The notes beneath the pieces are model-generated. The model made no database searches and was not told the origin of the DNA. It saw nothing but the letters and a program-made list of their open reading frames with translations. Source: Algimonas ampicilliniresistens (GTDB lineage: Bacteria; Pseudomonadota; Alphaproteobacteria; Caulobacterales; Maricaulaceae). From it: 64,000 bases of DNA. The translations under genes and the position numbers were made by a program. The DNA is taken from positions 1,054,001 to 1,118,000 of the forward strand of contig NZ_BSNK01000002.1 of assembly GCF_030159955.1 (NCBI RefSeq), written 5' to 3'. Shown in pieces: positions 1 to 57,484 of this stretch (position 1 is the first letter of the stretch; the number at the start of each line of letters is the position of its first letter).

Positions 1-330
1 TTCCTCGACTTTCTTGATCTTGCTCTGGTGGAAGGGGGTCCGACCGGTACGTTCAATGTCGGCACGGGCGAAAGTAAATCGATCAAGGACGTGTTCGATC
101 AGGCGGTCGAATATCTCGGCATCACGCTAGATGAACCCGTGCCCGTAGTCCCGGCTGGCGACGACGATGTGCGCGAAATGGTACTAGACGCGTCCGAGAC
201 CGAAAGTGCCTTCGATTGGTCTCCCAAAGTTTCTTTTGAAGACACGATTCGTCGCATGTATGAATGGTACGACAAGAACGGCGTCACGGCGATTTTCAGC
301 CATGTCAAAACGCCCGATAGCGTCAGGTAG
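1..330 (+). CDS. NAD-dependent epimerase/dehydratase, C-terminal part
   Basis: This is the last 109 codons of a gene that begins before the window. The frame is open from base 1 and stops at 328-330. The peptide contains the FNVGTG segment that extended short-chain dehydrogenases carry just after the substrate loop. It is followed by the usual C-terminal helices of a sugar-nucleotide epimerase (FDWSPKVSFEDTIRRMYEW). The cofactor and catalytic motifs lie outside the window, so the reaction cannot be named. It sits 4 bp before a lipoprotein gene on the same strand and belongs to the glycan locus that follows. It is one of four SDR-type enzymes in that locus. Confidence 0.8.
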   Translation, partial: FLDFLDLALVEGGPTGTFNVGTGESKSIKDVFDQAVEYLGITLDEPVPVVPAGDDDVREMVLDASETESAFDWSPKVSFEDTIRRMYEWYDKNGVTAIFSHVKTPDSVR

Positions 331-334
331 GCTT

Positions 335-1405
335 ATGTTACGCTCTGTGCTTTTCGTTTCCGGTTTTATCGGTCTCGCTGCTTGCACAGGTGACGTGGCT
401 GAGCCGCAGCCTGAGGCGCTCGAGTTTCCGGCCCTGACCTTGACGGACTTCTCCCATGAAGGAACATCGACGGCGGTTTTGACGTTCAATCATGATGCTT
501 TGGGCGAGGTGGCCTACCGCCTCGACGGCGATGACCCCCGCATAATCGCGTCCGAAGACGGCATTGTGCGCATCGACTATTATGCGGACGCGCCGGACGG
601 CGATGGGGTCCTTGACGAACAAAGTTACGTTCTAGAATTTCAGGATGCCAACGACCAGCCTCACTCTATCGAGTTGATCCGTCAAAGCCCTGGGGAGCTT
701 CTGGAGGCTTTTGAGTTCGACAAGGTTGATGGTTACACCATTCTTGGATCTAATACGCTTCTGTTCTCAAATGGCGATGTCGACTCGGCACATGTGCTGG
801 ATCGCAGCTATTCGGAAGACTTCACTGTAAATGATGCGGTCGCCAATGCGGACCTCATCTACCCCGAACTCCACATTGCCGCAGATATTGTCGGGACGCT
901 TTATGCTCAACCTTTATCATTCGGTCCGAGAGACCGTGGCGGGGCGAAGAGTCTGATCGAAGAGATCGAGAACATCCGAAATGGTGCTGACGGTATTCAG
1001 TGCGCGGGTTTCCGCGAATTGTGGGGTCATGCCTCGGAAGACCACGGCCTTATATTTCGGTATGTCGGCCTCTACAGCTACGCGCCCTATTTCGATGACC
1101 TGACACCCTATAGTCATGCCATCGCAGAGGTTATGACGGACGACGGTTGGAAAGCTATCGACCCGTGGAATAACGCGGCCTTTCGCGTGCGAGAGCGTTA
1201 CGTGTCCGCCGAAGAATTGCGCCAAGCAGTGAAACGTGAACCGGCGACGGTCGAGATCGTGATGCTTAATCCAGGCCTTGAAAAGATCATTCTGGGGGCT
1301 GACGGATCCACGACGTCGACATTGATTAAATTCCCGGAGCGAGATTTCTACTTCAACTATTTCGGCGCCATTGAAACAGTTGATGTAACGTTCACTAGTG
1401 GATAA
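335..1405 (+). CDS. Transglutaminase-like lipoprotein A (Cys-His-Asp present)
   Basis: A 356-residue predicted lipoprotein. I chose the ATG at 335 because it gives a short signal peptide ending in LAAC, with the lipid-accepting cysteine at residue 17, and lies 4 bp after the previous stop. The N-terminal half looks like a beta-rich domain. The C-terminal half carries a papain/transglutaminase-like triad: Cys223 in QCAGF, His261 in PYSHAIAEV and Asp276 in AIDPWNN. Proteins of this fold cleave or transfer acyl groups on peptides; the substrate here is unknown. It is followed by a tandem paralog (1473-2612) and then by glycan genes. Membrane anchoring would place it in the periplasm. Fold assignment is fairly sure, the reaction is not. 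Confidence 0.75.
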   Translation: MLRSVLFVSGFIGLAACTGDVAEPQPEALEFPALTLTDFSHEGTSTAVLTFNHDALGEVAYRLDGDDPRIIASEDGIVRIDYYADAPDGDGVLDEQSYVLEFQDANDQPHSIELIRQSPGELLEAFEFDKVDGYTILGSNTLLFSNGDVDSAHVLDRSYSEDFTVNDAVANADLIYPELHIAADIVGTLYAQPLSFGPRDRGGAKSLIEEIENIRNGADGIQCAGFRELWGHASEDHGLIFRYVGLYSYAPYFDDLTPYSHAIAEVMTDDGWKAIDPWNNAAFRVRERYVSAEELRQAVKREPATVEIVMLNPGLEKIILGADGSTTSTLIKFPERDFYFNYFGAIETVDVTFTSG

Positions 1406-7449: not shown

Positions 7450-8745
7450 ATGGCTCAACGGACGATTCTCGTTCTCTACTATACGCGCGGCGTTTTCCCG
7501 CTGCGCGACACGATAGAGCGCCATCTCTATTGTTGGCGGCGGTACAGTTCGCACCGTGTGGCCTATGTTAACATCGCAATGGGATTGCCTTGGCGATTTA
7601 TTGAAGGTCTTGATCCTGATGTGGTTGTTTTGCACACATCGCTGTGCGGGATGCGCTGGAGCGAGGCCGTTTTCCGCCGTTTCGCACCGATTTTGACCCC
7701 GCTGAAAACTCACCGTAGTCTCAAGATTGCTCAACCACAGGACGAATTTATTCATACCGACTTGCTCGATAAGCTGATCGAGATGACAGGAACGCGCTTG
7801 GTGATGAGTTGCGCCAGGGCGGATGCGCGCGCGGTCATCTATGCGAATGCTCCATCTGAAGTGGCTTATGAGCAGGTTTTGACAGGCTATTTGGATCCAG
7901 ACACGGTCGCTTATGCAAAGGCGTGCCACCGTCCAATCACAGAGCGTCCTCATGGTCTGACTTACCGGGCTTGGCGCGCGGCGGACTGGCTAGGATCACT
8001 TGGGCAGCTAAAAGTACGCATCGGTGAAGTCTTCGCCGCCGCCGCAGTTCGAACTGGAATCAAGGCCGATATTTCGCTTGATGACGAGGATACAGTGTCT
8101 GGAAAAGCGTGGATCAAATATCTCGCGGACAGCCGCGCCGTGATTGGCGTGGAGGGCGGAGCGTCAATTCTTGATCGCGACGGATCATTGAAACAGGCGG
8201 TCGAAGCGTACCGCGCAGATCATCCAACGGCCACATTCGAGCAGGTACGCGACGCCGTATTTCCTGACCGCGACGGGGAATTACCTCTCCGCGCGCTGTC
8301 TCCGCGTCACTTGGAGGCCGCGGCGACCCGCACGGCACAATGTCTCGTGCGTGGAGCCTATAACGGTCTGCTGGAGGCTGACGTCCATTACATTCCGGTT
8401 GAAGAGGATTTCTCCAACCTAGACGCAGTGCTGGTCGCCCTGCAGGATGACGATGTTATAGACGCGGTCGCTGATCGGGCCTTTCGCGATATTGTGGAGG
8501 CTGGCCGAGCCGCCTATCCCGATTTTGTCGACGAGTGGGACCGTCGGTTAGAGTGCGACACGCCGGAACCGCCGCGTTGGACAATCGACCGTGCGCGCAG
8601 ACTTTGGACGCTGAACGTCCGCGATCGTCTGTTCTGGCGGTTCATCGCCTGGGAAGTTCGGCAGCTGGCGTCCGATAATCCCTATGGCCGAAGGTCGCGA
8701 CTGCGCGAACGGTGGCTAAGGCTGTTTGCAGATATCCCGGCATGA
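7450..8745 (+). CDS. CgeB-like glycosyltransferase paralog 1
   Basis: A 431-residue protein, one of four related proteins in this locus (7450, 15891, 20050 and 31426). Shared marks are QPQDEF near residue 100, a long central part with VEGGASI-D-DG, HPTATFEQVRDAVFP and the block SPRHLEAAA, then YIPVEEDFSNLD. The SPR-LEAAA block with the following acidic stretch resembles the nucleotide-sugar-binding end of CgeB/Glyco_trans_1_2 glycosyltransferases. The most similar relative is 31426-32757, which like this gene sits next to a GT4 gene. The gene ends in an ATGA overlap with that partner. The donor sugar is unknown. Confidence 0.65.
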   Translation: MAQRTILVLYYTRGVFPLRDTIERHLYCWRRYSSHRVAYVNIAMGLPWRFIEGLDPDVVVLHTSLCGMRWSEAVFRRFAPILTPLKTHRSLKIAQPQDEFIHTDLLDKLIEMTGTRLVMSCARADARAVIYANAPSEVAYEQVLTGYLDPDTVAYAKACHRPITERPHGLTYRAWRAADWLGSLGQLKVRIGEVFAAAAVRTGIKADISLDDEDTVSGKAWIKYLADSRAVIGVEGGASILDRDGSLKQAVEAYRADHPTATFEQVRDAVFPDRDGELPLRALSPRHLEAAATRTAQCLVRGAYNGLLEADVHYIPVEEDFSNLDAVLVALQDDDVIDAVADRAFRDIVEAGRAAYPDFVDEWDRRLECDTPEPPRWTIDRARRLWTLNVRDRLFWRFIAWEVRQLASDNPYGRRSRLRERWLRLFADIPA

Positions 8746-10311: not shown

Positions 10312-11190
10312 ATGTCTTCACCCGATTTAAAAGTAAGCAAACGGGAACGCCGTAAGGCGGTTGCTGGGCGGGAGATTTTCATCTCTGATGCCCGTCGTCC
10401 GGGCGCGGCGACTTGGGCGGATATTCTGTCTATTCGGCATCGATGGCGTACCGTTTTCTCTGATGGTGTTGAGGATGTTACCACGCGGTACCGGCGTTCC
10501 GTATTGGGTCCATTTTGGAACCTTGTCAGCACTGTTGTCTTCGTGCTCGGGTTTATGGCGCTCGGAAAATTACTGCTCAATATTCCTGCTGCGGAATTTC
10601 GTGAATATGTCGCTTACGTTACAGGCGGTGTTGTTTTGTGGTCGTTCATTTTCAGCATTCTTGTGGAAGGTGCGAACATGTACACCACACCGGTCACAAC
10701 AGGGTTTCAGCTCTCTTTTGCGGAAATTCCGTTCCGTATCCTTGTTCGTAATTACGTCATGCTGGCGTTCAATCTGGCGACGCTGTTTTTGGTCGCGCTT
10801 CTCTTTATTGGTCCCAACATTTCGATGTTTATGGTGATCCCAGGCTTAGTACTTATGGGCTTTGTCTTGCTGCCTGCGGGAATTGTGCTGGGTATTATGG
10901 CGGCGCGGATGCGGGATTTGGGTCCAGCCGTGTCTAACCTGATGCAGTTTGGTTTCTATCTCAGCCCAGTTTTCTGGCGTGCGCGGGACATTCCAGAAAC
11001 CTATCCGGAACGTCTTTTTCTTGAGCTTAATCCGTTTTACTACATGCTAACTTTGGCGCGCGATCCGCTCATGGGGAATATTCCAAGTGCCAAGATCTAC
11101 ATCGTATCTGCGGCGCTCGGCATTGTGGCCTGGATTATAGCTATCATTGTCTTCGCAAAATACCGGCGCAAGCTGACTTACTGGTCGTAA
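10312..11190 (+). CDS. wzm: ABC-2 polysaccharide export permease (Wzm/KpsM-like)
   Basis: A 292-residue membrane protein with about six hydrophobic segments after a roughly 60-residue cytosolic start. RYRRSVLGPFWNLVS is the characteristic entry motif of the ABC-2 glycan exporters (TagG/Wzm/KpsM). NLMQFGFYLSPVFW and ELNPFYYMLTLARDPLMG are also family blocks. With the ATPase 7 bp downstream it should move an undecaprenyl- or lipid-linked glycan across the inner membrane. No outer-membrane partner (Wza/KpsD) or co-polymerase is in the window. Whether the polymer is an O-antigen or a capsule is not shown; the symbol is generic. Confidence 0.9.
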   Translation: MSSPDLKVSKRERRKAVAGREIFISDARRPGAATWADILSIRHRWRTVFSDGVEDVTTRYRRSVLGPFWNLVSTVVFVLGFMALGKLLLNIPAAEFREYVAYVTGGVVLWSFIFSILVEGANMYTTPVTTGFQLSFAEIPFRILVRNYVMLAFNLATLFLVALLFIGPNISMFMVIPGLVLMGFVLLPAGIVLGIMAARMRDLGPAVSNLMQFGFYLSPVFWRARDIPETYPERLFLELNPFYYMLTLARDPLMGNIPSAKIYIVSAALGIVAWIIAIIVFAKYRRKLTYWS

Positions 11191-11196
11191 CGGCTC

Positions 11197-12027
11197 ATGT
11201 ATCCACCACGTCTCTCTGCAACCGACTTACAGGTCGCTTTTCCGCTCGGTCTGGCCGAAAGCCGGACGTTTCGTGCGTCCGTAGGCAATATGCTTCGCGG
11301 TAACCCTACCAAGGATCAATTCAAGCTCGGTTTGTATGATGTCAATTTTACGCTGCGAACCGGCGACCGTCTCGGCATCGTCGGGGCCAACGGTGCGGGG
11401 AAATCAACCCTCATCCAGACTTTGATCGGAACCTATGAGCCGACGAAAGGCCGGGTCATCCGAATTGGTCGCGTGGCCGGCTTGATTTCCGCCAAGACCG
11501 GAATGGTCGTCGATGATACGGGCATGTCCAACATTTACAGGCGCGGACGACAGGCTGGTCTGAGCCGCGAAGCGATTGAAGGTTACCTCCCTAAGATCCT
11601 CGATTTCGCGGCGTTAGGTGATGACATTGACCGGGCGGTTCGTACTTATTCTACCGGTATGTCCGCGCGGCTTGGTTTCGCAATCGCTACGTGCATGAGC
11701 GCGCAAATCTATATCATGGATGAATGGATTGGCGCTGGCGACGCACGGTTCGTCGACAAGGCGCAGCAACGTATCGAAGCGATGTTCGATGAGGAACATA
11801 TTTTGGTCTTGGCAACACACGTTGACGCACTTATTAAACGTTGGTGTAATCAAGTCTTAGTGTTGCATGAAGGGCGACAGATAGCCTTGACCGATGTTGC
11901 AACAGGGCTCGACATCAAGAACCGCATACTGAAAGACGAAGCCGTCAATACAGTGCTGGCCTCTCACAACCTACCCCCGATTCCCGACTCGGACGCGCTA
12001 AACAAAACGCGTATCGTCAAGCTCTGA
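11197..12027 (+). CDS. wzt: ABC polysaccharide export ATPase (Wzt/KpsT-like)
   Basis: A 276-residue ATPase with Walker A GANGAGKS at 63-70, signature YSTGMSARLGF at 151-161 and Walker B IYIMDEW at 171-177. The STGM form of the signature is typical of polysaccharide exporters. Only about 40 residues follow the nucleotide-binding domain. It therefore lacks the C-terminal carbohydrate-binding domain of Wzt proteins that read a terminal cap (E. coli O8/O9a type), and resembles KpsT/TagH-type ATPases. It pairs with the permease gene just upstream. Confidence 0.92.
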   Translation: MYPPRLSATDLQVAFPLGLAESRTFRASVGNMLRGNPTKDQFKLGLYDVNFTLRTGDRLGIVGANGAGKSTLIQTLIGTYEPTKGRVIRIGRVAGLISAKTGMVVDDTGMSNIYRRGRQAGLSREAIEGYLPKILDFAALGDDIDRAVRTYSTGMSARLGFAIATCMSAQIYIMDEWIGAGDARFVDKAQQRIEAMFDEEHILVLATHVDALIKRWCNQVLVLHEGRQIALTDVATGLDIKNRILKDEAVNTVLASHNLPPIPDSDALNKTRIVKL

Positions 12028-15010: not shown

Positions 15011-15901
15011 GTGGAAGCCTCCGCAAAGCCCAAAATTCTACTGACCGGTGCAACTGGGTTTATCGGCCAGTCCGTTATGCGCCATCTATCAATGCATGCC
15101 GATCTCTATCCTGTGGTAAGAACAGCCGGGCAGGGTGGTTCGAACGCGGTTGTTCATGATCTCAACACGCCTTTGTCAATCGCGGTCTTGCCGGAACAGA
15201 TTGATGCAGTGATCCATATGGCGCAATCTCCAAATTATCGCGGTTTTCCCGATACGGCTTCAGAGGTGTTCGGTATCAATGTCCGGGCTATGTCCGAATT
15301 ACTGGATTATGCTGCAAAAGCCGGTGCGGACTCGTTTGTGCACTGTTCCACTGGGTCTGTGTACGAACCTTATGACGGGGTTTTAGCCGAGAGCCGGGCG
15401 CTGAGCCCGACTTCGCTCAATGGAACAACGAAACTTGCCGCCGAAGCTATTAGTCGGACTTATGAGTCACAGTTTGCCGTGTCCCGTTTGCGTTTTTTCA
15501 TGCCTTACGGCCCCGGACAGTATGACAAGCTATTACCAGCTATCATAGACCGGGTCGCCAATGGGCGCGCCGTTGACTTGCAAGGTGGAACCGGGCCAAC
15601 ATTGGCCCCGATACATGTCGAAGATGCTGCCGCCATTATTGCGAGCGCCGCGCTGAAACGCTGGTCGGGCACCTATAATGTGGCTTCGCCGGAACAGTTT
15701 ACACTTGCTGAAATCGCAGAAATGATTGCGGCTCAGATGGGGCAAACGCTGTTGCAAAACGCTACGGACGGAACACCCGCCCGTCTTGTTCCAGAGATCG
15801 AAAGGCTCGCCGCGAAATGCCCGGATCGAAAATATATTCCGTTCAAGGTCGGATTGCGCGATACGATTGATGCTCAGATCGGAGGGTCAGATGAAGCGTA
15901 G
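15011..15901 (+). CDS. Extended SDR with missing active-site tyrosine
   Basis: A 296-residue SDR. I chose GTG 15011, 2 bp after the asnB stop; an ATG at 14942 inside asnB would add 23 unlikely residues. It has GATGFIG at 13-19, HCSTGSVYE at 111-119 and RFFMPYGPGQYDKL. Where the family has YxxxK it reads NGTTK, that is Asn137 in place of tyrosine, with Lys141 kept. This should impair classical SDR proton transfer, so it may catalyse a different step or be a non-catalytic partner. It overlaps the next gene by 11 bp. Confidence 0.8.
   Translation: MEASAKPKILLTGATGFIGQSVMRHLSMHADLYPVVRTAGQGGSNAVVHDLNTPLSIAVLPEQIDAVIHMAQSPNYRGFPDTASEVFGINVRAMSELLDYAAKAGADSFVHCSTGSVYEPYDGVLAESRALSPTSLNGTTKLAAEAISRTYESQFAVSRLRFFMPYGPGQYDKLLPAIIDRVANGRAVDLQGGTGPTLAPIHVEDAAAIIASAALKRWSGTYNVASPEQFTLAEIAEMIAAQMGQTLLQNATDGTPARLVPEIERLAAKCPDRKYIPFKVGLRDTIDAQIGGSDEA
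15881..15886 (+). promoter_or_regulatory. Ribosome binding site fixing the start at 15891
   Basis: GGAGGG lies 4 bases before ATG 15891, inside the end of the preceding gene. It decides against the much longer upstream frame and implies coupled translation of the SDR and the glycosyltransferase-like gene. Confidence 0.7.
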
Positions 15902-17762
15902 CATTCTGGTTCTATCCTCCCTCTACGATTACCATCAGCTGACACAGTTCGTTCAGTATTTGTCGGCCTATCCGCGCCTTTCGCGCCATGACTACTACTT
16001 CCATAATTTTGTTTATGACTTCGATCCTGAACAGGTGGATTTTGACGATTTCGATGCCGTCATGGTGCCGCATAATTTCTGGCCCCTGTACCTGTCCGAT
16101 GAGCAAATCGAGGCATTTGCAGAGACGCGTGCCCTGAAACTTGTCTTCCTGCAGGACGAATATCAGGAAGTGAATACTGTGGCGGACATTCTGGGTCGAA
16201 TGAAGGTCGATCTGGTTTTCACATGTGTCAATCCGGAAGATCACGACGTGTTTTATTCCAAGCGCCGCATTCCGACCCTCAAAGCCGTCAATCAAGTTCT
16301 GACGGGCTATGTCGACGAAAAATTGCGTAAGCCCGGCCTTTTTACCTTGGATAACAAGTCCATCGACGTGGGTTTTCGAGGCCGGATATCGCCATTCTAT
16401 TTGGGTGAATTGGGTTATCAGAAACAGAAAATCACGGAGATGTTTGCCGAGCCTGCCCGAAAAGCAGGATTGTCCGTCAATATTTCCATCAATGAGTCCG
16501 ATCGTCTATCCGGCGATCGCTGGCTTGGTTTCCTACAGAGCTGCCGTACCCAATTGGGTACACCCAGCGGATCTAGTGTTATTGATTTCAACGGGCGCAT
16601 CATTAAGGAAACGGCATCCTATCGCAGGGCGTTTCCACGTGCTGATTTCGACACGGTTCGCGACGATGTTTTCCGCCGCCAAGACGGTCGCTACAGTATC
16701 GACACGATTTCACCGCGCATGCTGGAAGCCGCCGCGACGGGTTCCGCCATGGTGCAATTGGAGGGTCGTTATGGCGGTTTCATGAGCGCAGGCGAACATT
16801 ATATTGAACTGAAGAGTGATTACTCCAACATTCCGGAGGTCATTGCGCAGATCAAAGATAAACGTCTTGTGCGTGAGATGGCGCAGCGGGCTTATGACCA
16901 TTTCATCACGTCTGGAAAATTCGACTTCCAGCGCCACATCGATAAATTCGACAATTTGATCGACACGCATTTAGCTGGAACAGAGGCAAGTCAACCGCCG
17001 TCGAAGCGTGCCTTCTATCAAAACCAGATCAGCCGCCATAAACAGAATTTCACGGTGGGTCGCGACGGTGTCACCTGGTTCGACACGCTTCCGTCGCGTC
17101 AGATGCGGCGAGCTAACGCTGAGCGCGACGCTTTGCGGGAACACAAGCTCTACGGACCCATGCTCAAAAGGGCGGGGGGCGATCCGATCATCAAGCGGGC
17201 TAAGGCGGGTGTCGCGCTTGACCTCGTTCGTGCTTATCCGGCGTACCGAAATTTATTGCTGGCAGGTCTCTGCCTGCCGGGCATTTCAGTGGAAGATATA
17301 TTACGCGAAATTTTTATCTTGGGAATTATACAAGCGAGCCGATTGGGTCTGTCTCCCACCGGTGCCGCCCTGAAAGCGACCCTTGTCAATCATCCTGATG
17401 GTGACGTGGTTATAGAGACGCGCAATATTGGCTACCCATTCGGTTCGTGCCCGGTCATAGCTCCGTCTGATGTCAAGCCCTCCAAACTGGCTCCTGAAGC
17501 GCTCTGGGTTGATTTTCGAAAGACGTTTCCGATCGGCAATGCCAACAGCACGCTCATCGTTCCGGTCAAAATCGGTGGCGATTGGACGGATATCCGGTCC
17601 GATCCATCATTCCGCTATCCACTGTATGCCACATGCAAGGTCGGGAATGTGCTTGGATCTGTTGTTCGCGCGGCACTGAAACAGGCCATAGGAACAACCA
17701 CCGACAAAAAAGTGGATGTCGAGGCATTGCGACACGCTTTCAAGGAAGTCTACGGCCTCTGA
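15891..17762 (+). CDS. CgeB-like glycosyltransferase paralog 2 with unique C-terminal domain
   Basis: A 623-residue protein, the longest of the four CgeB-like paralogs. It starts MKRSILVLSSLYDYHQ and has QDEYQE around residue 90, VGFRGRISPFYLGE, FPRADFDTVRDDVF, SPRMLEAAATG and YIELKSDYSNIPE. Residues from about 385 to the end are absent from the other paralogs and unrecognised. This part includes a helical, partly hydrophobic stretch (LLLAGLCLPGISVEDILRE) and a late beta-rich stretch. It probably transfers a sugar during chain building; the extra domain might bind acceptor or partner proteins. It is followed on the other strand by a Sel1-repeat gene. Confidence 0.62.
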   Translation: MKRSILVLSSLYDYHQLTQFVQYLSAYPRLSRHDYYFHNFVYDFDPEQVDFDDFDAVMVPHNFWPLYLSDEQIEAFAETRALKLVFLQDEYQEVNTVADILGRMKVDLVFTCVNPEDHDVFYSKRRIPTLKAVNQVLTGYVDEKLRKPGLFTLDNKSIDVGFRGRISPFYLGELGYQKQKITEMFAEPARKAGLSVNISINESDRLSGDRWLGFLQSCRTQLGTPSGSSVIDFNGRIIKETASYRRAFPRADFDTVRDDVFRRQDGRYSIDTISPRMLEAAATGSAMVQLEGRYGGFMSAGEHYIELKSDYSNIPEVIAQIKDKRLVREMAQRAYDHFITSGKFDFQRHIDKFDNLIDTHLAGTEASQPPSKRAFYQNQISRHKQNFTVGRDGVTWFDTLPSRQMRRANAERDALREHKLYGPMLKRAGGDPIIKRAKAGVALDLVRAYPAYRNLLLAGLCLPGISVEDILREIFILGIIQASRLGLSPTGAALKATLVNHPDGDVVIETRNIGYPFGSCPVIAPSDVKPSKLAPEALWVDFRKTFPIGNANSTLIVPVKIGGDWTDIRSDPSFRYPLYATCKVGNVLGSVVRAALKQAIGTTTDKKVDVEALRHAFKEVYGL

Positions 17763-19138: not shown

Positions 19139-20053
19139 ATGTCTGAAGATGCGTCACGCCTTTTCGAACGTGCTGGCTATAATTATCTTGATATTGACCC
19201 CGACGCGGAACCTTATTCGCTGCTGACGCCTGCAGAGTTGGCAGACGGGCTGTTTCATATGTCCCTTTTTATGGATGTTTCAGGTCAATGGGACCGGACA
19301 GCGGAATCGATTTTAAAAACCGTCCGATTTGTCAAAACGCTTGAGAGCCAGGAGGTGCATCCCATCTGGGTGCGGCTTTTGCGCCACGCACACGCCGCAC
19401 CGTGCGCGGATAAACGCGATGCGCTTCTGGAAGAATCCATTATACCCCGGAAGCTTTCATCCAAGCGCTGGCCGCGGTTTTCACCGGCGCTTCGCTACGA
19501 AACCTTGGCGGCAGAGATTCAATCTCAGGCACCGGTGGATGCGGTTCTCAAGACATGGGACAGATTTACGAAGTTCTTCCCGGAAGAATCCGTGCGTCCG
19601 TCGGCGCTTTGCGCGGCAGCATTACAGGCCCATATGGCGGGTCGTGCTGAGCTAGCTGAACGACTGCTCGACGGACTGAAAGAGAGCTATCCGAAGGCAT
19701 ATGAACTCAGCGATGTTCCTGCCAATCTCTGTGCCCGGATATTCTACCTGCGTAACCTTTTTCCAGAGCATTCACCGAACTGGAACAATCGCGTTGACTA
19801 TTGGCAGTCCGCCTTGTCGCCCTTCGATTCAAGACAGATCGGTCTGCGCTACCCTGAACTGCGGGCGATCTATCATGACTTGATCTCTGACGCAGATGCC
19901 GACGCAAACCGGCTTCAAGACATTCATGAAAAATGGCAGAGTTTCCTGATGGAGGCGCTGGATCTTGATGTGCTCACACCTGCAGCCGACATCCCGTCTG
20001 ACGGTGATGCCAGCCTAGCGGATCACGTGATCCAGGCCGAGGGCCTGTCGTGA
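19139..20053 (+). CDS. Uncharacterised helical protein
   Basis: A 304-residue, largely alpha-helical protein without recognised domain, signal peptide or membrane segment. The ATG at 19139 (MSEDASRL) is preferred; another at 19094 in the same frame adds 15 residues, and neither has a strong ribosome site. Helix pairs such as AALQAHMAGRAELAERLLDGL recall TPR-like folds. Its stop overlaps the GTG of the next gene (GTGA at 20050), so it is coupled to CgeB-like paralog 3. By position it may be the counterpart of the Sel1 partners of the other paralogs. Function is unknown. Confidence 0.6.
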   Translation: MSEDASRLFERAGYNYLDIDPDAEPYSLLTPAELADGLFHMSLFMDVSGQWDRTAESILKTVRFVKTLESQEVHPIWVRLLRHAHAAPCADKRDALLEESIIPRKLSSKRWPRFSPALRYETLAAEIQSQAPVDAVLKTWDRFTKFFPEESVRPSALCAAALQAHMAGRAELAERLLDGLKESYPKAYELSDVPANLCARIFYLRNLFPEHSPNWNNRVDYWQSALSPFDSRQIGLRYPELRAIYHDLISDADADANRLQDIHEKWQSFLMEALDLDVLTPAADIPSDGDASLADHVIQAEGLS

Positions 20054-21606
20054 AGCGCATCCTGATACTTCACGATCTAAGTGTGGGTTCACGCCGCACC
20101 AACCGCGATCACGTTTACAATTTCGCCAAATACGCGAAAGGAAACTTCTACCTTTTCCACGCGGCTAATGCTCCGCAGAGCGACGCAATGCGGAATATCG
20201 CTTGGGACGGGGTAATCATCAATTACTGTTTTCTCGGCTACCGTGCCTCTACGCTCTATGAGCGCGTGCGCGCAGATTGGGCGTGGCTGGTGGATATTGA
20301 CTGTCCGAAAGTCGGCATCGCGCAGGACGATTACACGGATAGCGGCCATCTTGATGATTGGCTGCAATCCATCGGAACAACGGTGATCTACAGCCCGGTG
20401 ACGCAAAGCCTGGAACAAATATATCCTAAAAACTATGGCTGGACGGAAATACGCGAAGGTCTGACAGCCTATGTGGACAGCAAGCAACTCACGGAGTTGG
20501 CGACGTTCGCGACATCATGGGACGAACGCACAATCGATGTGGGGACGCGGGTCCGTTATTTGCCGCCACAATTCGGGCGCTACGGTCGACGTAAAGGCGA
20601 AACAGCCGAGGATTTCCGCGACTCCGCCGAACAGCAAGGGTTCGCCGTTGATATTTCCACGTCGCCGGAGGATGTGATCTTTGGCAATGACTGGTTGCGG
20701 TTTGTCGGAAATTGCAAGTTTACGCTCGGGTCACGAGGTGGTTCCAGCATAAACGATCCGGACGGCAGCATTCGTAAGGCGATATCCGCCTATATGGTGA
20801 ATCATCCAAATGCGGGTTTCGCGGAAGTCGAAAGGAAGTGCTTTCCTGGCGTTGATGGCGAATTCGTATTTGCTGGGATCAGTCCTCGATTGTTCGAGTC
20901 AGCCGCGCTGGGCACCTGCCAGATTCTGATCCGTGATGAGTATGTTGGCGGGATCGAACCTTATATTGATTATATCCCTATGGAAGACGACTTGTCCAAT
21001 CTGGACGAGGTCTTCACCCTGATGCGGGATGAGGCGAAGGTTAAATCCATGATCGCCAGCTGTCACGCCAAGCTCGTGGCTTCCAAGGCATTCGATTACG
21101 AGAAGTTTGTCGCAGAAGTTCTCGACATTTTCCCGGATGGAGACGCTGTATTGAGCGATAGGGATGTCGAGTGCATCCACGCCCATTTCAAGGCTATTGA
21201 GCCGTTTCTCGCTATCAAGAAGCAGCGTTCCAACTTCTATGAGCGCGGTTGGAGACGAACGCTGGCCAAAATGTCTTACGGGCGCAGCCTTAGCCACGCG
21301 AATGCCATATTCGGCATGGATCCGTTGCTACGCGGCAGTCCGGCCTTTGTCTCAGCCATGTTCCAAAGCTTGCCGCCAACATTAGCCTATGAGCTTACGG
21401 CGCAGACCTTGGCGGAGCTTCCACCGGATTCGCCGATACTGTCCAGTATGAAAGCCCTGACCGAGTGGGCTGTCGACGAAGACAAAAGCTTCGAGGATCT
21501 CGATGTGTGGTGGGATATGTGCGAGTATATCTATGAGCCGGAGGAGACGCAGAACATCGACCTATCTGGTGAAAACGGACCCACGTCGGAAAAGGTCATG
21601 TCGTGA
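20050..21606 (+). CDS. CgeB-like glycosyltransferase paralog 3
   Basis: A 518-residue protein starting at a GTG that overlaps the previous stop. Family marks are QDDYTDS around residue 95, DVGTRVRYLPPQFG, GSRGGSSINDPDGS, HPNAGFAEVERKCFPG, SPRLFESAALG and YIPMEDDLSNLDEVF. The C-terminal 130 residues (from about 385) differ from the other paralogs and end in an acidic tail. It should be a GT-B-like transferase in the cytoplasm. It heads a tight run (20050-25104) in which every gene overlaps the next by a few bases. Confidence 0.62.
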   Translation: MKRILILHDLSVGSRRTNRDHVYNFAKYAKGNFYLFHAANAPQSDAMRNIAWDGVIINYCFLGYRASTLYERVRADWAWLVDIDCPKVGIAQDDYTDSGHLDDWLQSIGTTVIYSPVTQSLEQIYPKNYGWTEIREGLTAYVDSKQLTELATFATSWDERTIDVGTRVRYLPPQFGRYGRRKGETAEDFRDSAEQQGFAVDISTSPEDVIFGNDWLRFVGNCKFTLGSRGGSSINDPDGSIRKAISAYMVNHPNAGFAEVERKCFPGVDGEFVFAGISPRLFESAALGTCQILIRDEYVGGIEPYIDYIPMEDDLSNLDEVFTLMRDEAKVKSMIASCHAKLVASKAFDYEKFVAEVLDIFPDGDAVLSDRDVECIHAHFKAIEPFLAIKKQRSNFYERGWRRTLAKMSYGRSLSHANAIFGMDPLLRGSPAFVSAMFQSLPPTLAYELTAQTLAELPPDSPILSSMKALTEWAVDEDKSFEDLDVWWDMCEYIYEPEETQNIDLSGENGPTSEKVMS

Positions 21607-28187: not shown

Positions 28188-29696
28188 CTATTTCTTGGGT
28201 TCGAATACTGCGAAAACGTCCTGAATGCCGTCGGCGGCCCATGCGGAAACGTGGTCGAGCACTCGGAAGTGCTGCTCCATCATCGGCATGAACCAGCTTT
28301 CATCGATATGGAACAAATGGAATTGATCGATCGGGCCTTTATAGGGGCCAGTGGGATCCTTGGAGCCCTCCACGTTCGCATACCACGCGATGAACCGCCC
28401 GCCGCTGCGAGTGACCCGAGCCGTTTCCGCAATTGCGTCAGGCAGATCGATGCAGTGATCCAGTGCCGTTGAGTTGACCACTGTGTCGAACGCGTCGTCT
28501 TGAAACGGGATGTCCTCGTTAAAGCCCATATGGACTGGAAAGCGCGTCTCCGTCTGCATGGTCAACGGCTCCAGCCCGGTTAGCCAATGTCTATCAATTC
28601 CGCGCAGGTAGAGCGGGTCACCATAAGGGCCGCAGCCGATGTCCAGCATATTACCGCGACCGTGAATGCGCAGATAGGATTGAAATGCCCAAGCGCGGCG
28701 CTCGCTCCAATGCGCGCAATTATTCTTGGGCGATTCAATATAAATTTCCCCCCCTTGATCATAACATTCTCGCCAATCGGCATAACGATCCGGATAGGCT
28801 TTTTTTAAACCGTCGAATTTTTCATTCCGCGTTGTTAAATCGAGCGCGCGTGGACGACGGTTAATGAGGCGGCGCCAGTGGGACTTGCGATCAAGGAGGC
28901 GGTTCGGGCCGGACCCGCTTTGCCGGATGAGCGCGAACTGCAAACCTACATCATTGTCTCTTGAGAGCTGTGCCAAGGATTGAAGGGCAATGGCCAAATT
29001 GTTGGCCTGCTCAGCAATCTGCAGGAGATTGAGCCGTATTGGCTCAAGAAGGTTGGACGCTTCAATTTGCACAGCCCGACTTGCTTCCTGAAAGGTTGCA
29101 GGCCTCGAGGCACTTTCAAAGGCAAGGAGATGCGCTTCGATTCCAGAGACCGCTTGCTTCAGAGGTTGAACGATTGTCCCAACTTCGGTTTGCACAGCAG
29201 CGCTAGATTTCTCGAAGATGGTCTGAGGAAGGGTCTCAGATGTGTGCGCCAACTTCTCAGACAGTGTCTTAAAGCTCTGCTGAGAGCGTTCGTTCGCTTG
29301 TGTGCTTTCCACTTGGACGGCGCGGCTTGTTTCTTCGAAGACTGATTTGCGTAAACTGTCTTGGTTCGCGTTGATCTGACTTTCGACACGACTCAGCGCG
29401 TCCTGAGCCGGGCGCAAAAGCGATACGACTTCAGTCTGAACGGCCGAGCTGCTTTCTTCGAATACCACATTCCGAATGGAGTCCAGTTGGTCTGCGACCA
29501 AGCCTTCAAGGTGACGGATGCTGGCGTGCAACGGTTCGAGATAGGTATGAACAGTTTCAAGTGTCGGCCCGACGATTTGGTTGGGCAAAGCGGACATCTG
29601 GGTACGGATCGCCTGCAGCTCGGAATCCATATCTGTATCATTTTTCATAGCGGCGCCGGATTCATCGGGTTCCGTCGTATCATTATTACTGCTCAT
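28188..29696 (-). CDS. Coiled-coil (41-residue repeats) SAM methyltransferase
   Basis: A 502-residue two-part protein. Residues 1-75 are acidic to helical. Residues 77-117, 118-158, 159-199 and 200-240 are four repeats of exactly 41 residues, each opening with xxFEExSxAVQxE, and a weaker copy precedes them. Residues about 350-500 are a class I methyltransferase (NMLDIGCGPYGDP, then FDTVVNSTALDHC and ARVTRSGGRFIAWY). Methyltransferases joined to coiled coils (WbdD of E. coli O9a) cap O-chains and act as molecular rulers in ABC-exported glycans; the arrangement here is N-terminal coil, C-terminal methyltransferase. The same role is inference. Confidence 0.8.
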   Translation of the reverse strand: MSSNNDTTEPDESGAAMKNDTDMDSELQAIRTQMSALPNQIVGPTLETVHTYLEPLHASIRHLEGLVADQLDSIRNVVFEESSSAVQTEVVSLLRPAQDALSRVESQINANQDSLRKSVFEETSRAVQVESTQANERSQQSFKTLSEKLAHTSETLPQTIFEKSSAAVQTEVGTIVQPLKQAVSGIEAHLLAFESASRPATFQEASRAVQIEASNLLEPIRLNLLQIAEQANNLAIALQSLAQLSRDNDVGLQFALIRQSGSGPNRLLDRKSHWRRLINRRPRALDLTTRNEKFDGLKKAYPDRYADWRECYDQGGEIYIESPKNNCAHWSERRAWAFQSYLRIHGRGNMLDIGCGPYGDPLYLRGIDRHWLTGLEPLTMQTETRFPVHMGFNEDIPFQDDAFDTVVNSTALDHCIDLPDAIAETARVTRSGGRFIAWYANVEGSKDPTGPYKGPIDQFHLFHIDESWFMPMMEQHFRVLDHVSAWAADGIQDVFAVFEPKK

Positions 29697-29897
29697 TATT
29701 ACCCATTACTGTTGATTATTACTAATTATTGCTCAATTCGCGGTTTGCAAAATCGTCCTGTCTGCACAGTTGATTCTGTAAATGAACGGCTCGGGCTGAC
29801 TGGAAACGAGGAAGCAACTTTCGGCGCGATGCTGTGTGAGCCTGAATTTCGAGTTTTGGACGAAAAATGTTGCTTGCCTTCTTACTAGAACGTCCCG

Positions 29898-30896
29898 CTA
29901 AACAGACGTGATCACGAGGTTTTCAATAATGGCCGAAACCTCCCCGAGTGTGGAAATTTTGAAGGTCGACCCCTCTGGGCGGACCGGAAAGCGCCAATGA
30001 ATCCAGCCATCTTCGCTCTCGGTTCTATCGACCGTCAGGGCGGCTTCTGAGAAGTCCAAAACCGTATGACGCACCCCGCCTACAATCCGGTCTAGCGGGG
30101 CATAGCGGGTCTTGAGCGAGACCTGGACTTCGCGCTCCGCATCTGGACGGAGGTCGATGCTCAGGCTGGTTAGCGGCCCGCGCCCATGCGACAGACCCAA
30201 AGTATTGGCATAGGCCACATAAGTCTGGCCGTAGCCTAGATCGAGGTGAGACTTTTGAAGGTCTATCTCACTCAGCTCGATTTGGGTCGTTTCCGTCACG
30301 GGTACGGCCATTTCGGACACGAAAGTCCCCGTTTCATCTTCTGGAACGATGTCGCTGTAAAGGTATGACTCGTACGGCTTGAGAATGGGCCATCCTCCCG
30401 TTGCATGATTCATCGTGCCGCGTGGCAGAACCTCGCTGTTCGGGCTGACAGAGCGAAGCCACTTCCCTTGATAAGCGGGCGTCTTGGTCCGGCGTATTTC
30501 TACGTCTGGAAAGCGCTTGCGTGCATCGTCGAGCGAAATCGGGATATTCGGCTCAGCTATAGCAGCAATGAACGTACCGAATGTCGGGTCGAAAAATCTC
30601 CATTCGCCATCAATCCACACTTCGGTGCCGACATGCGCGATCTGGATCGGAATATTATGAAATCCGATGCGGCGACTTTTTAGGTTCAGCCGATCGCAGA
30701 CAGCCCTGAACAAGATGTCCCTGTGCCCGCAAGCTCCGTTCAGCTTGTCCAAGCTTTCCTCGGAGCTTTCGCTGTTCCGGTCCTTTACCGACAGAGACAG
30801 AGACCCGTATATCCAGGCATTTAGGAAGACACCTTTAAGGACTTCTGGGCCCCGAAGCTTTTGGACCTGTTTCGTAAGTTCGTCCAAGGAATTCAT
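29898..30896 (-). CDS. Transglutaminase-like protein D (cytosolic)
   Basis: A 332-residue protein without signal peptide or lipobox. The triad is Cys56 (NGACGHRD), His88 (IAHVGTEV) and Asp103 (FFDPTFG). The HNIP and FFDPTFG segments are the same as in the lipoprotein at 3820-5010. The C-terminal 150 residues look beta-rich. In the same strand run are Sel1, CgeB-like, GT4 and coiled-coil methyltransferase genes. It is preceded by a 68-bp spacer and followed by a 201-bp one. A cytosolic member suggests that the family acts on a glycan or protein substrate before export, or regulates the pathway. Function is unknown. Confidence 0.7.
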   Translation of the reverse strand: MNSLDELTKQVQKLRGPEVLKGVFLNAWIYGSLSLSVKDRNSESSEESLDKLNGACGHRDILFRAVCDRLNLKSRRIGFHNIPIQIAHVGTEVWIDGEWRFFDPTFGTFIAAIAEPNIPISLDDARKRFPDVEIRRTKTPAYQGKWLRSVSPNSEVLPRGTMNHATGGWPILKPYESYLYSDIVPEDETGTFVSEMAVPVTETTQIELSEIDLQKSHLDLGYGQTYVAYANTLGLSHGRGPLTSLSIDLRPDAEREVQVSLKTRYAPLDRIVGGVRHTVLDFSEAALTVDRTESEDGWIHWRFPVRPEGSTFKISTLGEVSAIIENLVITSV

Positions 30897-30964: not shown

Positions 30965-31429
30965 TCAGCGACGGCCGACAATTCGGTCCCAAAGATTCCG
31001 ACGCTTTGCATGATAGTCAGGTTGGCGCAAGCTTGCAGAGGTTCCTTGACCGGTAGCACCATAAAGCGCGGACAGCTTCTCCAGAGCGGGTTCATGTCCC
31101 AGCTCCCAGGCTTGCTCATAGAAAGGCCGAGCCGAGGCCGCGTTGCCTCCGTCCAGTAAGCCGGCTTCATGCAATATGCCGAGGTTAAAGGCTGCGACTC
31201 CGATTCCCCCATTCGCCGCTTTGACATACCATGCGGCAGCCGAACCATTATTCGCTTCACGGTCTCCTAGACCCATCTGCTCAATGACGCCGACGAAATG
31301 CGCCGCCATGGGATGAGTGTCAGATAGGCGAACCAACGGGTCGAATGCCGCAACATAATCGCCAGAAAAGTAGAGTCTGCTTGCAGCGTCGAATTCATTC
31401 TGACTTCCGTCCTGTGTCGGGGAGCTCAT
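30965..31429 (-). CDS. Sel1-repeat protein 2
   Basis: A 154-residue protein made mostly of three Sel1-like repeats (WYVKAANGGIGVAAFNLG is the clearest). It starts at the ATG overlapping the stop of the CgeB-like gene upstream (ATGA at 31426-31429). This makes coupled translation and a direct partnership likely. There is no signal peptide. Compare the longer Sel1 protein at 17816-18943, which also lies next to a CgeB-like gene. Confidence 0.72.
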   Translation of the reverse strand: MSSPTQDGSQNEFDAASRLYFSGDYVAAFDPLVRLSDTHPMAAHFVGVIEQMGLGDREANNGSAAAWYVKAANGGIGVAAFNLGILHEAGLLDGGNAASARPFYEQAWELGHEPALEKLSALYGATGQGTSASLRQPDYHAKRRNLWDRIVGRR

Positions 31430-32757
31430 GGGGCGGTCTTGTTTGAGTGGCCGGGTTGCAGAGCACCATCTTTGGTCAATGCTTTGCGAATGCCGGATAG
31501 GAACAGACGCAATCTTGGACGCTGTCCCAACCAGACTTCAAACCTGACACGGCGGGTCAGATAGCGATCGCGTCTTTGCAAATGCCTTATCAGAGCACCA
31601 TCAGGACGCTGTTGCGCGTCGGAAGCCGGGGCGTAGGGACCACATTGGAGCGCGACTTTCTCAACGAAGTCAGAATATCGCAGCTCGACGTTCTCCAGAA
31701 TCCGGCGCCTGGCCGAGTCCGCGATTTCTTGAAGTCTGCTTTTATCGGAGATTTGCAAGAGTGCCTGGTCGAGATCGGATAAATCAGTTTCAACCGGTAT
31801 ATAGTCGCGTCCAGCGAGGAGTGCGCCGTTGAAATCTCCTTTGATCAGTATCTGACAGCTTCCCATTGCTGCAGCTTCAAGATGGCGCGGGGATAGGCAC
31901 TTCAAGTCTAGTGAGCCTTCCGCGCCGGGAAAGCAGGCCTGTTCCAAATCGGTGAAGTTCGCCCCAGGGTGATCTTTAAGGTATTTTACTCCGCAATCTC
32001 TGAAATGGCCCACAGGATCATGGATGGAAGCGCCGCCCTGAACTCCGATTACGGCCTTGCATCGGCTCAAAAACTGCAACCATCCGTCTCCAGTCCTGAC
32101 ATCGGTCGGGTCCAGAGAGATATGCGCTTTCAGCGTCGTGGTGATCGGGGAGCGTCGCGTTGCCTCGGCGATTTCGACCTTGAGTCTGGCGTGGCGTCCC
32201 AGCCAAGGCGTCGCCCTCCAAGCTAGATAACCTACATCGACGGGTCTCGCCGCAATCGGTCTGACTTTCCGTGCTATTTCAAGAAGGCCCTCATCGACAT
32301 ACCCCGTCAGCACCGGTCGAACGGCAATATTACGTTCGGATGATTCAGGATACAATTTCGTATGTTCGTGTTCTGGCCCGCAACTGAGGATTAGGCTTGC
32401 GCCGATGTCCACGGCGAAGCGGTCCACCGCCACGGTATCGACGAATTCATCTTGCGGCCTCAGAATCTTGGCGGCGGGTAGATCGCAGAGCTTTTTCCGA
32501 AATTCAGCATCCGAGAACAATGCCGGATCGCGCCAGCGAAGCTTCATGAAGGTTGTATCAAAAACGATATGCGATGGATCCAGCGCCTTTAGACGTTCAG
32601 CCTCCAAACCGTATGCCGCATTAATATAAATAACGGGAGCAGGCGCGTGACGCCCCCAGCTTTCGAGGTCCACGCGACTGGAACGTCGCGGTGGCCAGCT
32701 GCCTCGTAAGTGGTGATACACCACCCAAGGGCGTAGATCAGAGCGCCGTGATAACAC
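31426..32757 (-). CDS. CgeB-like glycosyltransferase paralog 4
   Basis: A 443-residue protein starting at GTG 32757. Closest to paralog 1 (7450-8745): both have RPQDEF or QPQDEF, YLAWRA/YRAWRA, ISLD, AVIGVxGGASI, SPRHLEAAA and YIPVExDxSxLD in the same order and spacing. It follows a GT4 gene with a 2-bp gap and overlaps the Sel1 gene by 4 bp. It should be a cytosolic GT-B-like transferase; acceptor and donor are not known. Confidence 0.65.
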   Translation of the reverse strand: MLSRRSDLRPWVVYHHLRGSWPPRRSSRVDLESWGRHAPAPVIYINAAYGLEAERLKALDPSHIVFDTTFMKLRWRDPALFSDAEFRKKLCDLPAAKILRPQDEFVDTVAVDRFAVDIGASLILSCGPEHEHTKLYPESSERNIAVRPVLTGYVDEGLLEIARKVRPIAARPVDVGYLAWRATPWLGRHARLKVEIAEATRRSPITTTLKAHISLDPTDVRTGDGWLQFLSRCKAVIGVQGGASIHDPVGHFRDCGVKYLKDHPGANFTDLEQACFPGAEGSLDLKCLSPRHLEAAAMGSCQILIKGDFNGALLAGRDYIPVETDLSDLDQALLQISDKSRLQEIADSARRRILENVELRYSDFVEKVALQCGPYAPASDAQQRPDGALIRHLQRRDRYLTRRVRFEVWLGQRPRLRLFLSGIRKALTKDGALQPGHSNKTAP

Positions 32758-32759
32758 GA

Positions 32760-33980
32760 TTAACTTTGCTGAGAAGACGTTCGATTTTCTGCGCCGGAAT
32801 AAACTGCATCTAGGCCACCGAGGAGCCTGTCATGCGAAATTCGGGAGAAATCAAACAACCTTCGATCCAAGTCTTCGTCGCGTCGAAAGCTACGAATTCG
32901 GGCCGTCATGATTGAGAAATCGGCCGCGCCATCGGATGTGTCTCCACCCCATGCCGGCTCGTCCAATACACTGCCGATGCCGTGGGTTATGATAGTATTG
33001 TGAATTATTGGAAGGTCACGTGAGAGTAAAGGTACTCCCGCACATGGAAACTCGTACAGTTTGTTTGGTGTGGCTATTCGGTGATTGGCTATATCGGTCT
33101 GATAAGGAATTAATCCCGCATCCGCGCCGGACAGCCAGGCCTGCAACTCCGTAGGCGCAACGGCGTCTATCAGGTGGACGTTCGAATGGGCGTTGGCGTA
33201 GGATTGTATTTCGTCCGTCAGCGGTCCGTAGCCCATAAAGGCCAGATGTGTGTGGGGTTGAAGATCGCTGGCGCCCCGCAACAGTGCCTCAATGCCGCGG
33301 CAACGATTGAACGCCCCTGAAAACAGTAAGACGATGTCTTCAGGCACCACGCCGAGAGTTTTGCGCAAGGGGCTGGCGGTGCGTTGGACTGGGCGAGATA
33401 GATCCCAATCTGGTACGTTGCCGAACAAGTAAGGGGACGGCCATTCGGGATAGCTATCCGTATAGAGTTTCGACAGGGCTTCGCTGGAGCATACCCACGC
33501 GGATAATTCCGGGCCGAATTCGCTCAATAATGCTTGGATGTAACGCCCTGTCGCCGCATCGGCGGCGGCCGTGCCGGGGAACCATTCGCAGGCATCAAAG
33601 ATGATGGCTGTGTCAGCGCCGCTCTGGCGTTTCCACAGGACTGCAACCTTGAGAGCGTAGGGATCCATGACATGCAGGGCATCGGGCAATACGGCGTTGA
33701 AATGCCTGAAGACGTCTTTCAGAAGGCTGCGGAAAGCGATGGGTCTGGCCAATGATGACGGTACAACCTGCAAGAGTTCTAGAACCAACCGACTTGCATA
33801 AGCCTGGAGATCTGCCCCTGGATCGTCTTTGCGGAAACCGTTGGCGCGGGAATGTAGATGTAGGCGCATGACCTGTACGTCTGCACCAAGAGCGTTCAAG
33901 CGATGACGGGTTTTGACGATCCTGCCGTTGAAGGACATGGCATCAGAGCCGACGATCAGGACTTTCAAACCGAGTGCCAC
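32760..33980 (-). CDS. Glycosyltransferase family 4-like
   Basis: A 406-residue GT-B enzyme, starting at GTG 33980 (an in-frame TTG at 33968 would also do). VLLFSGAFNRCRGIEALLRG, LIPYQTDIANHRIATPNKLYEFPCAGVPLL and the N-terminal NGRIVKTRHRLNALGADV are GT4 features. The LIPYxxDxxNHxIAxPNKL block is the same as in the GT4 at 8742-10304. That enzyme also adjoins a CgeB-like gene, so the pair appears duplicated. It is the first gene of a five-gene minus-strand run. Confidence 0.85.
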   Translation of the reverse strand: MALGLKVLIVGSDAMSFNGRIVKTRHRLNALGADVQVMRLHLHSRANGFRKDDPGADLQAYASRLVLELLQVVPSSLARPIAFRSLLKDVFRHFNAVLPDALHVMDPYALKVAVLWKRQSGADTAIIFDACEWFPGTAAADAATGRYIQALLSEFGPELSAWVCSSEALSKLYTDSYPEWPSPYLFGNVPDWDLSRPVQRTASPLRKTLGVVPEDIVLLFSGAFNRCRGIEALLRGASDLQPHTHLAFMGYGPLTDEIQSYANAHSNVHLIDAVAPTELQAWLSGADAGLIPYQTDIANHRIATPNKLYEFPCAGVPLLSRDLPIIHNTIITHGIGSVLDEPAWGGDTSDGAADFSIMTARIRSFRRDEDLDRRLFDFSRISHDRLLGGLDAVYSGAENRTSSQQS

Positions 33981-57335: not shown

Positions 57336-57484
57336 TGCGGTGCAGATAGGGGGCGTAGCCGGGTCCTACAAGCGCTGCGATATTGAGGGAAATAGCAGTC
57401 CAAAATTCCCCTCAGACACGAATTCGGTGGCAAAAACGCTGAAAATCGCCCTTTTATGGTTAAAATCTATAGTTAGTGAGAGAT

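Follow-up and report, generated by a model that had tools for sequence, protein, structure and literature searches.

A Stalk of 41-Residue Repeats on a Putative Glycan Methyltransferase in an ABC-Exporter Locus of Algimonas ampicilliniresistens

The Gene and Its Neighbourhood

The DNA analysed here (the window) is a 64,000-nucleotide stretch of the Algimonas ampicilliniresistens genome. Our subject is a minus-strand gene at 28188–29696, delimited by the open reading frame call, Pfam, and the relatives of its product. The 502-residue protein combines an N-terminal, predicted-helical stalk with a C-terminal class I SAM methyltransferase domain (residues 282–500; 28197–28853, minus strand), which is recognised by Pfam and structure matches and has its first SAM motif at residue 351. 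The preliminary description of this DNA had placed a methyltransferase in this reading frame, and the match to Methyltransf_11 (E 2.9e-9; 37.9 bits, above the curated cut-off of 21.2) agrees. The nearest solved or curated methyltransferases are only distantly related to it and for the most part act on small molecules or are uncharacterised; the D-glucose O-methyltransferase 6uv6 is among them. The protein has no kinase match, and a comparison with PHROGs returned a weak methyltransferase-core match alone. For the stalk, the best E values were 0.04 against Pfam and 0.71 against the PDB; its residues 20–255 carry a net charge of −14 (17 Lys/Arg vs. 31 Asp/Glu). Promoter and terminator scans gave results at chance level. 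An imperfect, AT-rich 20-base tandem repeat of 2.5 copies (29685–29735) lies across the start codon of the gene and could affect translation start.

The stalk methyltransferase gene closes a run of five minus-strand genes, preceded, in order, by a GT4-type glycosyltransferase-like gene (32760–33980), a member of a second glycosyltransferase-like family (31426–32757), a Sel1-like gene (30965–31429), and a transglutaminase-like gene (29898–30896). Two of these assignments come from matches below cut-off: Glycos_transf_1 (E 3.9e-5) and the WcaI family (1.7e-11) for the GT4-type protein, and PF01841 (E 2.2e-4; 21.9 bits, just under the cut-off of 23) for the transglutaminase-like protein. The product of 31426–32757 has no Pfam match of its own; it matches proteins in two of the relatives' loci described below (L026 14044–15336 and L027 15651–16976) at 34–36%, and these are better matched by window 7450–8745 (50–51%). 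A member of this paralogue family precedes the glycosyltransferase, Wzm, Wzt, and methyltransferase genes in L026. Within the window, 7450–8745, 15726–17762, 20050–21606, and 31426–32757 form one glycosyltransferase-like family in that they match the same relatives, with no Pfam match above cut-off.

The window locus is rich in sugar-modifying genes: a formyltransferase, a WbqC-like protein, a WbmS-like deacetylase, and an FAD oxidoreductase. Related proteins common to glycan loci are encoded at window 206–1405 and 1473–2612, L026 15518–16807, and L027 17258–18574; the three that were scanned have no Pfam match. As had been claimed, an ABC-2 exporter shares the locus—a permease (Wzm; 10312–11190) and a 276-residue ATPase (Wzt; 11197–12027), both on the plus strand and together (10312–12027) some 16 kb from the methyltransferase gene.

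The 41-Residue Repeats

Residues 77–240 are made up of four gapless units of 41 residues, identified by self-match and period search: 77–117 (29346–29468), 118–158 (29223–29345), 159–199 (29100–29222), and 200–240 (28977–29099), all on the minus strand. The preliminary description had reported four consecutive units of exactly this length with a shared opening, FEExSxAVQxE, and both claims are borne out: every unit has F3, S7, A9-V10-Q11, and E13 in unit numbering, and unit pairs agree at 9–16 of 41 residues. The three best self-match offsets over residues 20–255 were 82 (0.53), 41 (0.50), and 123 (0.43), against a maximum of 0.32 in 1000 shuffles. In a joint search of periods 15–69 over residues 60–255, 41 scored best (0.82), with null maxima of 0.14 in 5000 plain shuffles and 0.27 in 5000 shuffles that kept the hydrophobic pattern; the period-41 signal was thus reached in 0 of 1000 shuffles and in 0 of 5000 under either null.

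A fifth, weaker copy had also been proposed ahead of these four (residues 36–76; 29469–29591, minus strand). Its hydrophobic phase and a proline at unit position 20 are shared with the other units, but its sequence identity to them is weak, at just 4–7 of 41 residues. It overlaps a conserved N-terminal tip (residues 25–57; 29526–29624, minus strand), which was delimited by local alignments against two relatives, G134 and G138. At the DNA level the four regular units are pairwise alike at 43–56 of 123 bases, and Tandem Repeats Finder detected no 123-base array in the gene; the duplications are therefore old, and the array, judged from these comparisons, is not a slippage-prone repeat.

Geometry of the Stalk

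The hydrophobic stripe of residues 25–250 peaks at 3.72 residues per turn, a strength seen in 0 of 1000 shuffles. This matches 41/11 (3.727), that is, 11 strides per unit, as in 11+15+15; the peak is partly forced, since a 41-residue repeat shows harmonics of 41 alone. At 41/11 the stripe phases over the five units are −2, 7, 8, −3, and −10 degrees, whereas at 7/2 they wander (−14, 98, −162, −27, and 44 degrees). A same-column shuffle of the four regular units reached the 41/11 strength in 0.24% of 20,000 trials (p 0.0024), the weak first unit, which has the same phase as the others, being left out of this test. Singly, the four regular units give broader peaks at 3.58–3.68 on the hydropathy scale, and residues 200–250 peak at 3.60.

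A left-handed heptad coiled coil was rejected for the window stalk, as the 3.5-residue stripe is out of phase. Periods above 3.63 give right-handed coils, according to the available text of PMC4786415; hence the stalk, if it is a coiled coil, would be right-handed and not of the heptad kind. Its period of 3.73 lies between the 11/3 and 15/4 of the hendecad and pentadecad coils described in that text, and 41 can be written as 11+15+15; it differs from those described there in being a predicted stalk built from one conserved 41-residue unit, mostly with a mid-unit proline. This proline, at unit position 20, is present in four of the five units (residues 55, 96, 178, and 219). More prolines fall near unit junctions (157 and 199), and residues 25–250 hold eight prolines.

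AlphaFold, given five sequences, predicts an almost wholly helical stalk, most of which has a pLDDT below 50. The stalk alone is likewise predicted to be helical nearly throughout, with pLDDT at 32–66 by block of ten residues and with helix breaks at residues 81–84, 138–140, and 196–198; these lie about 57 residues apart, out of step with the 41-residue units. Given the low pLDDT and the three breaks, a single continuous rod is unproven. Were the helix continuous, each unit would span 61.5 Angstrom and residues 25–250 about 340 Angstrom.

Relatives of the Protein and Their Loci

In a search of 138 family genomes at E 1e-8, the methyltransferase part had a match in 5: the window's own; Hyphobacterium indicum (G025) and two Robiginitomaculum metagenome-assembled genomes (G134 and G138), these three of the order Maricaulales in the Alphaproteobacteria; and G061. 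In the last (E 6.8e-11) just a short piece of the core matched, within a frame of 284 residues, and it was dropped as a generic methyltransferase, leaving four carriers in 138, the window's own included. None of the 18 same-genus genomes, several of them incomplete, matched at E 1e-8. Wider searches matched 4 of 399 genomes of the order (E 1e-12), 2 of 385 of the class (E 1e-15; the window's own and G725, from another family), and 1 of 398 in a phylum sample (E 1e-15), the window's own alone. A further search of 61 genomes matched 16, of which 14 were dropped as generic, the match covering short methyltransferase-core stretches alone. A single-protein search of the genome contigs found no relative and an alignment-based search found three (G025, G134, and G138); with the whole stalk as query, 3 of the 138 family genomes matched at E 1e-3—the window's own, G134, and G138.

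The N-terminal parts of the five proteins differ widely, with 137–446 residues before the first SAM motif (window, 350; G134, 212; G138, 221; G025, 446; G725, 137). Local alignment of the window N-terminus scored 107 with G134 (maximum of 300 shuffles, 58) and 123 with G138 (maximum 66), and the tip at residues 25–57 is the best-kept part of both alignments. G134 and G138 are identical to each other at 174 of 209 methyltransferase residues, 22 of 35 tip residues, and 31 of 74 shaft residues. A pattern of conserved ends and a variable middle thus holds, as far as these alignments go, for three proteins (window, G134, and G138). The G025 N-terminus shows no significant similarity to that of the window protein, its score of 76 lying below the highest of 300 shuffles (82). 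Here some 365 residues (20–385), with a near-heptad peak of 3.55, precede the same methyltransferase. This G025 stalk weakly matches Apolipoprotein (E 0.0018; 18.5 bits vs. a cut-off of 90). At its C-terminus the G025 relative is extended by a Lys-, Pro-, Ala-, and Ser-rich tail of about 155 residues (L025 9198–9665) that is absent from the other four.

Helix periodicity was not significant in G134 (p 0.22), G138 (p 0.065), or G725 (p 0.42, over 72 N-terminal residues), and by this measure the short relatives give no support to a coil. A profile of the four units found no unit in G134, G138, G025, or G725. A unit-like stretch seen by eye in G134 and G138 (LPxxxKxExMxxxxIE) was not counted; its distance from the tip exceeds that of the first full unit of the window protein by 7 residues. 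N-terminal length thus differs among the relatives, but variation in unit number, which the preliminary description had proposed to compare, was not seen with the profile in these four.

All five methyltransferase loci, from two families of the class, contain an ABC exporter and glycosyltransferases. In L026, the locus of G134, a glycosyltransferase-like gene, a glycosyltransferase, the permease, the ATPase, and the methyltransferase follow each other on one strand; L027 has the same order, but with an opposite-strand integrase-core (rve) gene between the ATPase and the methyltransferase. In L025 the methyltransferase gene is flanked by two genes, each fusing relatives of two window glycosyltransferase-like proteins; in this locus one relative of the glycosyltransferase-like family has as its fusion partner a protein related to the GT4 enzyme of the window. 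In L036, the locus of G725, one glycosyltransferase gene stands between the methyltransferase and a Wzt with a Wzt_C domain; this Wzt comes after a permease whose ABC2 match is weak and falls short of the cut-off.

A crude coil filter was applied to 15 loci, of which 10 are other exporter loci of the family, and revealed no second coil-fused transferase in those 10. The filter is noisy: there it picked out four proteins, namely an AcrB-like pump, an efflux protein, a TonB receptor, and a 196-residue frame without a Pfam match. Two further hits are L026 5965–7386 and window 57476–59104. A separate observation comes from the same genome outside the window, where L053 4232–9694 encodes a protein of 1097 residues. 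Its N-terminus matches a sulfotransferase weakly and below cut-off, its middle looks coil-like from weak matches to coiled-coil families, and it has two GT2 modules; the genes for an ABC-2 permease and a Wzt carrying Wzt_C come directly after it. This layout resembles the coil-spaced terminators of Klebsiella O7 and O12, possibly with a sulfate cap, and if the genome encodes a classical ruler, this protein is perhaps the likelier one.

The Exporter

For both window exporter proteins the best NCBIfam match is the Klebsiella O1/O2 galactan exporter (NF050109 and NF050108), yet the scores are far below the curated cut-offs (146 bits vs. 380 and 164 vs. 400). The permease has no Pfam match, and its assignment as galactan type is the nearest one available (NF050109, 1.8e-42). 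The O1 and O2 antigens reportedly lack a coupling of chain-length regulation to export, as stated in the accessible part of PMC10629545. No Wzt_C domain was found on the window ATPase (11197–12027) or on the L025 and L026 ATPases, and the domain is absent from the whole genomes of G025, G134, and G138; in the window genome one ATPase carries it, but this belongs to another locus. Nothing else weighs as heavily against a plain WbdD-type reading as the missing Wzt_C together with the galactan-like exporter. The distant G725 locus points the other way, toward the WbdD type, as it is the only methyltransferase locus with Wzt_C, but its N-terminal part is the shortest of the five.

Of the 138 family genomes, 77 have relatives of the exporter permease (E 1e-15) and 4 have the methyltransferase; hence export in general does not need the methyltransferase. 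The closest permeases, at 53 and 49% identity (G138 and G134; the next is at 35%), are from genomes that both carry it.

Comparison with Known Rulers

In the available text on WbdD of E. coli O9a, N-terminal catalytic domains are carried on a C-terminal coil about 200 Angstrom from the polymerase, and an altered coil alters chain length (PMC5082667). Common to WbdD and the window protein are a methyltransferase on a long helical region, which in the window protein is a prediction, and an ABC-exporter system, here at 10312–12027 and in the relatives' loci too (PMC5082667, PMC11231755, PMC3482155, as far as these texts were available). In those texts WbdD has its catalytic domains first and its coil last, a kinase, and a Wzt with a carbohydrate-binding module; in contrast, the window protein has its helical 41-residue units first and its methyltransferase at the C-terminus, the reversed order that had been claimed for it, with no kinase match and no Wzt_C on its exporter. 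Two tested features that define the WbdD type, namely an N-terminal catalytic domain with a C-terminal coil and a cap-recognising domain on Wzt, are thus absent, and we do not file the protein as a member of that type. WbdD is not named among the 39 PDB sequences matched (E up to 10) or among the best 50 of 847 Foldseek matches; the likeness is judged from published descriptions, in their available parts (PMC5082667, PMC11231755, PMC10629545, PMC3482155), and not from sequence comparison.

Klebsiella O7 ORF6 and O12 WbbB are like the window protein in outline, with a terminator set apart by a coil and an ABC-exported O-chain, and relatives of O7 ORF6 are reported in alphaproteobacteria too (available text of PMC11231755). 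The same text places their terminator at the N-terminus and polymerase modules after the coil, with some O7 relatives ending after the coil; the window protein has the opposite order and lacks a fused polymerase module. As summarised in the accessible parts of PMC11231755, PMC10629545, and PMC5082667, the terminator of a coil ruler for ABC-exported glycans precedes the coil, and the O9a prototype depends on an exporter that senses the cap. In outline, the window protein may function as WbdD and the Klebsiella terminators do. Our literature search found no account of this architecture; the reversed order may appear beyond the literature covered.

Interpretation

The window protein is most likely a stalk-mounted glycan methyltransferase and possibly a capping one; by analogy with the known rulers, a role in chain-length control is plausible. 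The proposal that we put forward, with a confidence somewhat short of even, is that of a cytoplasmic, stalk-mounted methyltransferase of an ABC-exported glycan whose stalk length biases chain stop. The N-terminal tip would dock on the glycosyltransferase or exporter assembly, and the 41-residue units would build a right-handed coiled-coil oligomer with 11 helical strides per unit; whole units could then be gained or lost without turning the stalk ends relative to each other. At the far end, the methyltransferase would methylate the growing chain, most likely at the non-reducing end, and stalk length would thereby bias where chains stop. This proposal draws on the period of 41, the phase held at 41/11, and the conserved ends with a variable middle; on the exporter and glycosyltransferases at five of five loci and the L026 gene directly after permease and ATPase; and on the unrelated G025 stalk on the same methyltransferase and the co-occurrence of the nearest permeases with it. 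It is opposed by the missing Wzt_C, the galactan-like exporter, the low-confidence and broken helices, the eight prolines, the short relatives without significant periodicity, and the frequency of the permease (77/138) relative to the methyltransferase (4/138).

Equal weight goes to a methyltransferase tethered to a scaffold without length control, in which the helical N-terminus would oligomerise and tie the enzyme to glycosyltransferases, N-terminal length drifting with nothing depending on it; methylation would fall on a precursor or on one sugar of every repeat unit. What favours this scaffold is the missing sensing domain, on the window exporter and in three relatives' genomes alike, along with stalk-poor relatives whose N-termini vary in length and sequence (two without significant periodicity), and a locus rich in sugar-modifying genes would suit it. 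However, the far tip is conserved, and the exact period of 41 over four old duplications, together with the held phase, favours an in-register rod under selection.

The mid-unit prolines, together with those at residues 157 and 199, could instead split the region into short amphipathic helices, folded in a bundle or lying on a membrane surface; the helix breaks predicted by AlphaFold and the weak Apolipoprotein match of the G025 stalk are in line with this. We consider it improbable, given that a net charge of −14 is ill-suited to binding an anionic membrane, that the stalk-only model breaks out of step with the 41-residue units, and that the window stalk itself has no Pfam match better than E 0.04. 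It is more improbable still that the enzyme acts on an unrelated substrate and just happens to sit in the glycan locus: its distant, mostly small-molecule or uncharacterised relatives would fit (though 6uv6 is among them), as would the lack of a match in the 18 same-genus genomes, but five loci in two families keep the methyltransferase among glycosyltransferases and an ABC exporter.

A stricter form of the stalk-length proposal is a quantal ruler, in which each unit would add 11 right-handed strides (about 61.5 Angstrom if the helix is continuous) with the ends kept in register, the galactan-type exporter would be insensitive to the cap, and termination alone would set length. This we regard as unlikely. 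The set of proteins described here combines a reversed domain order, interchangeable 41-residue units, an exporter without a sensing domain, and relatives with short, long, or unrelated N-termini; as a natural set, it would make the question of whether stalk length alone sets chain length testable outside pathogens.
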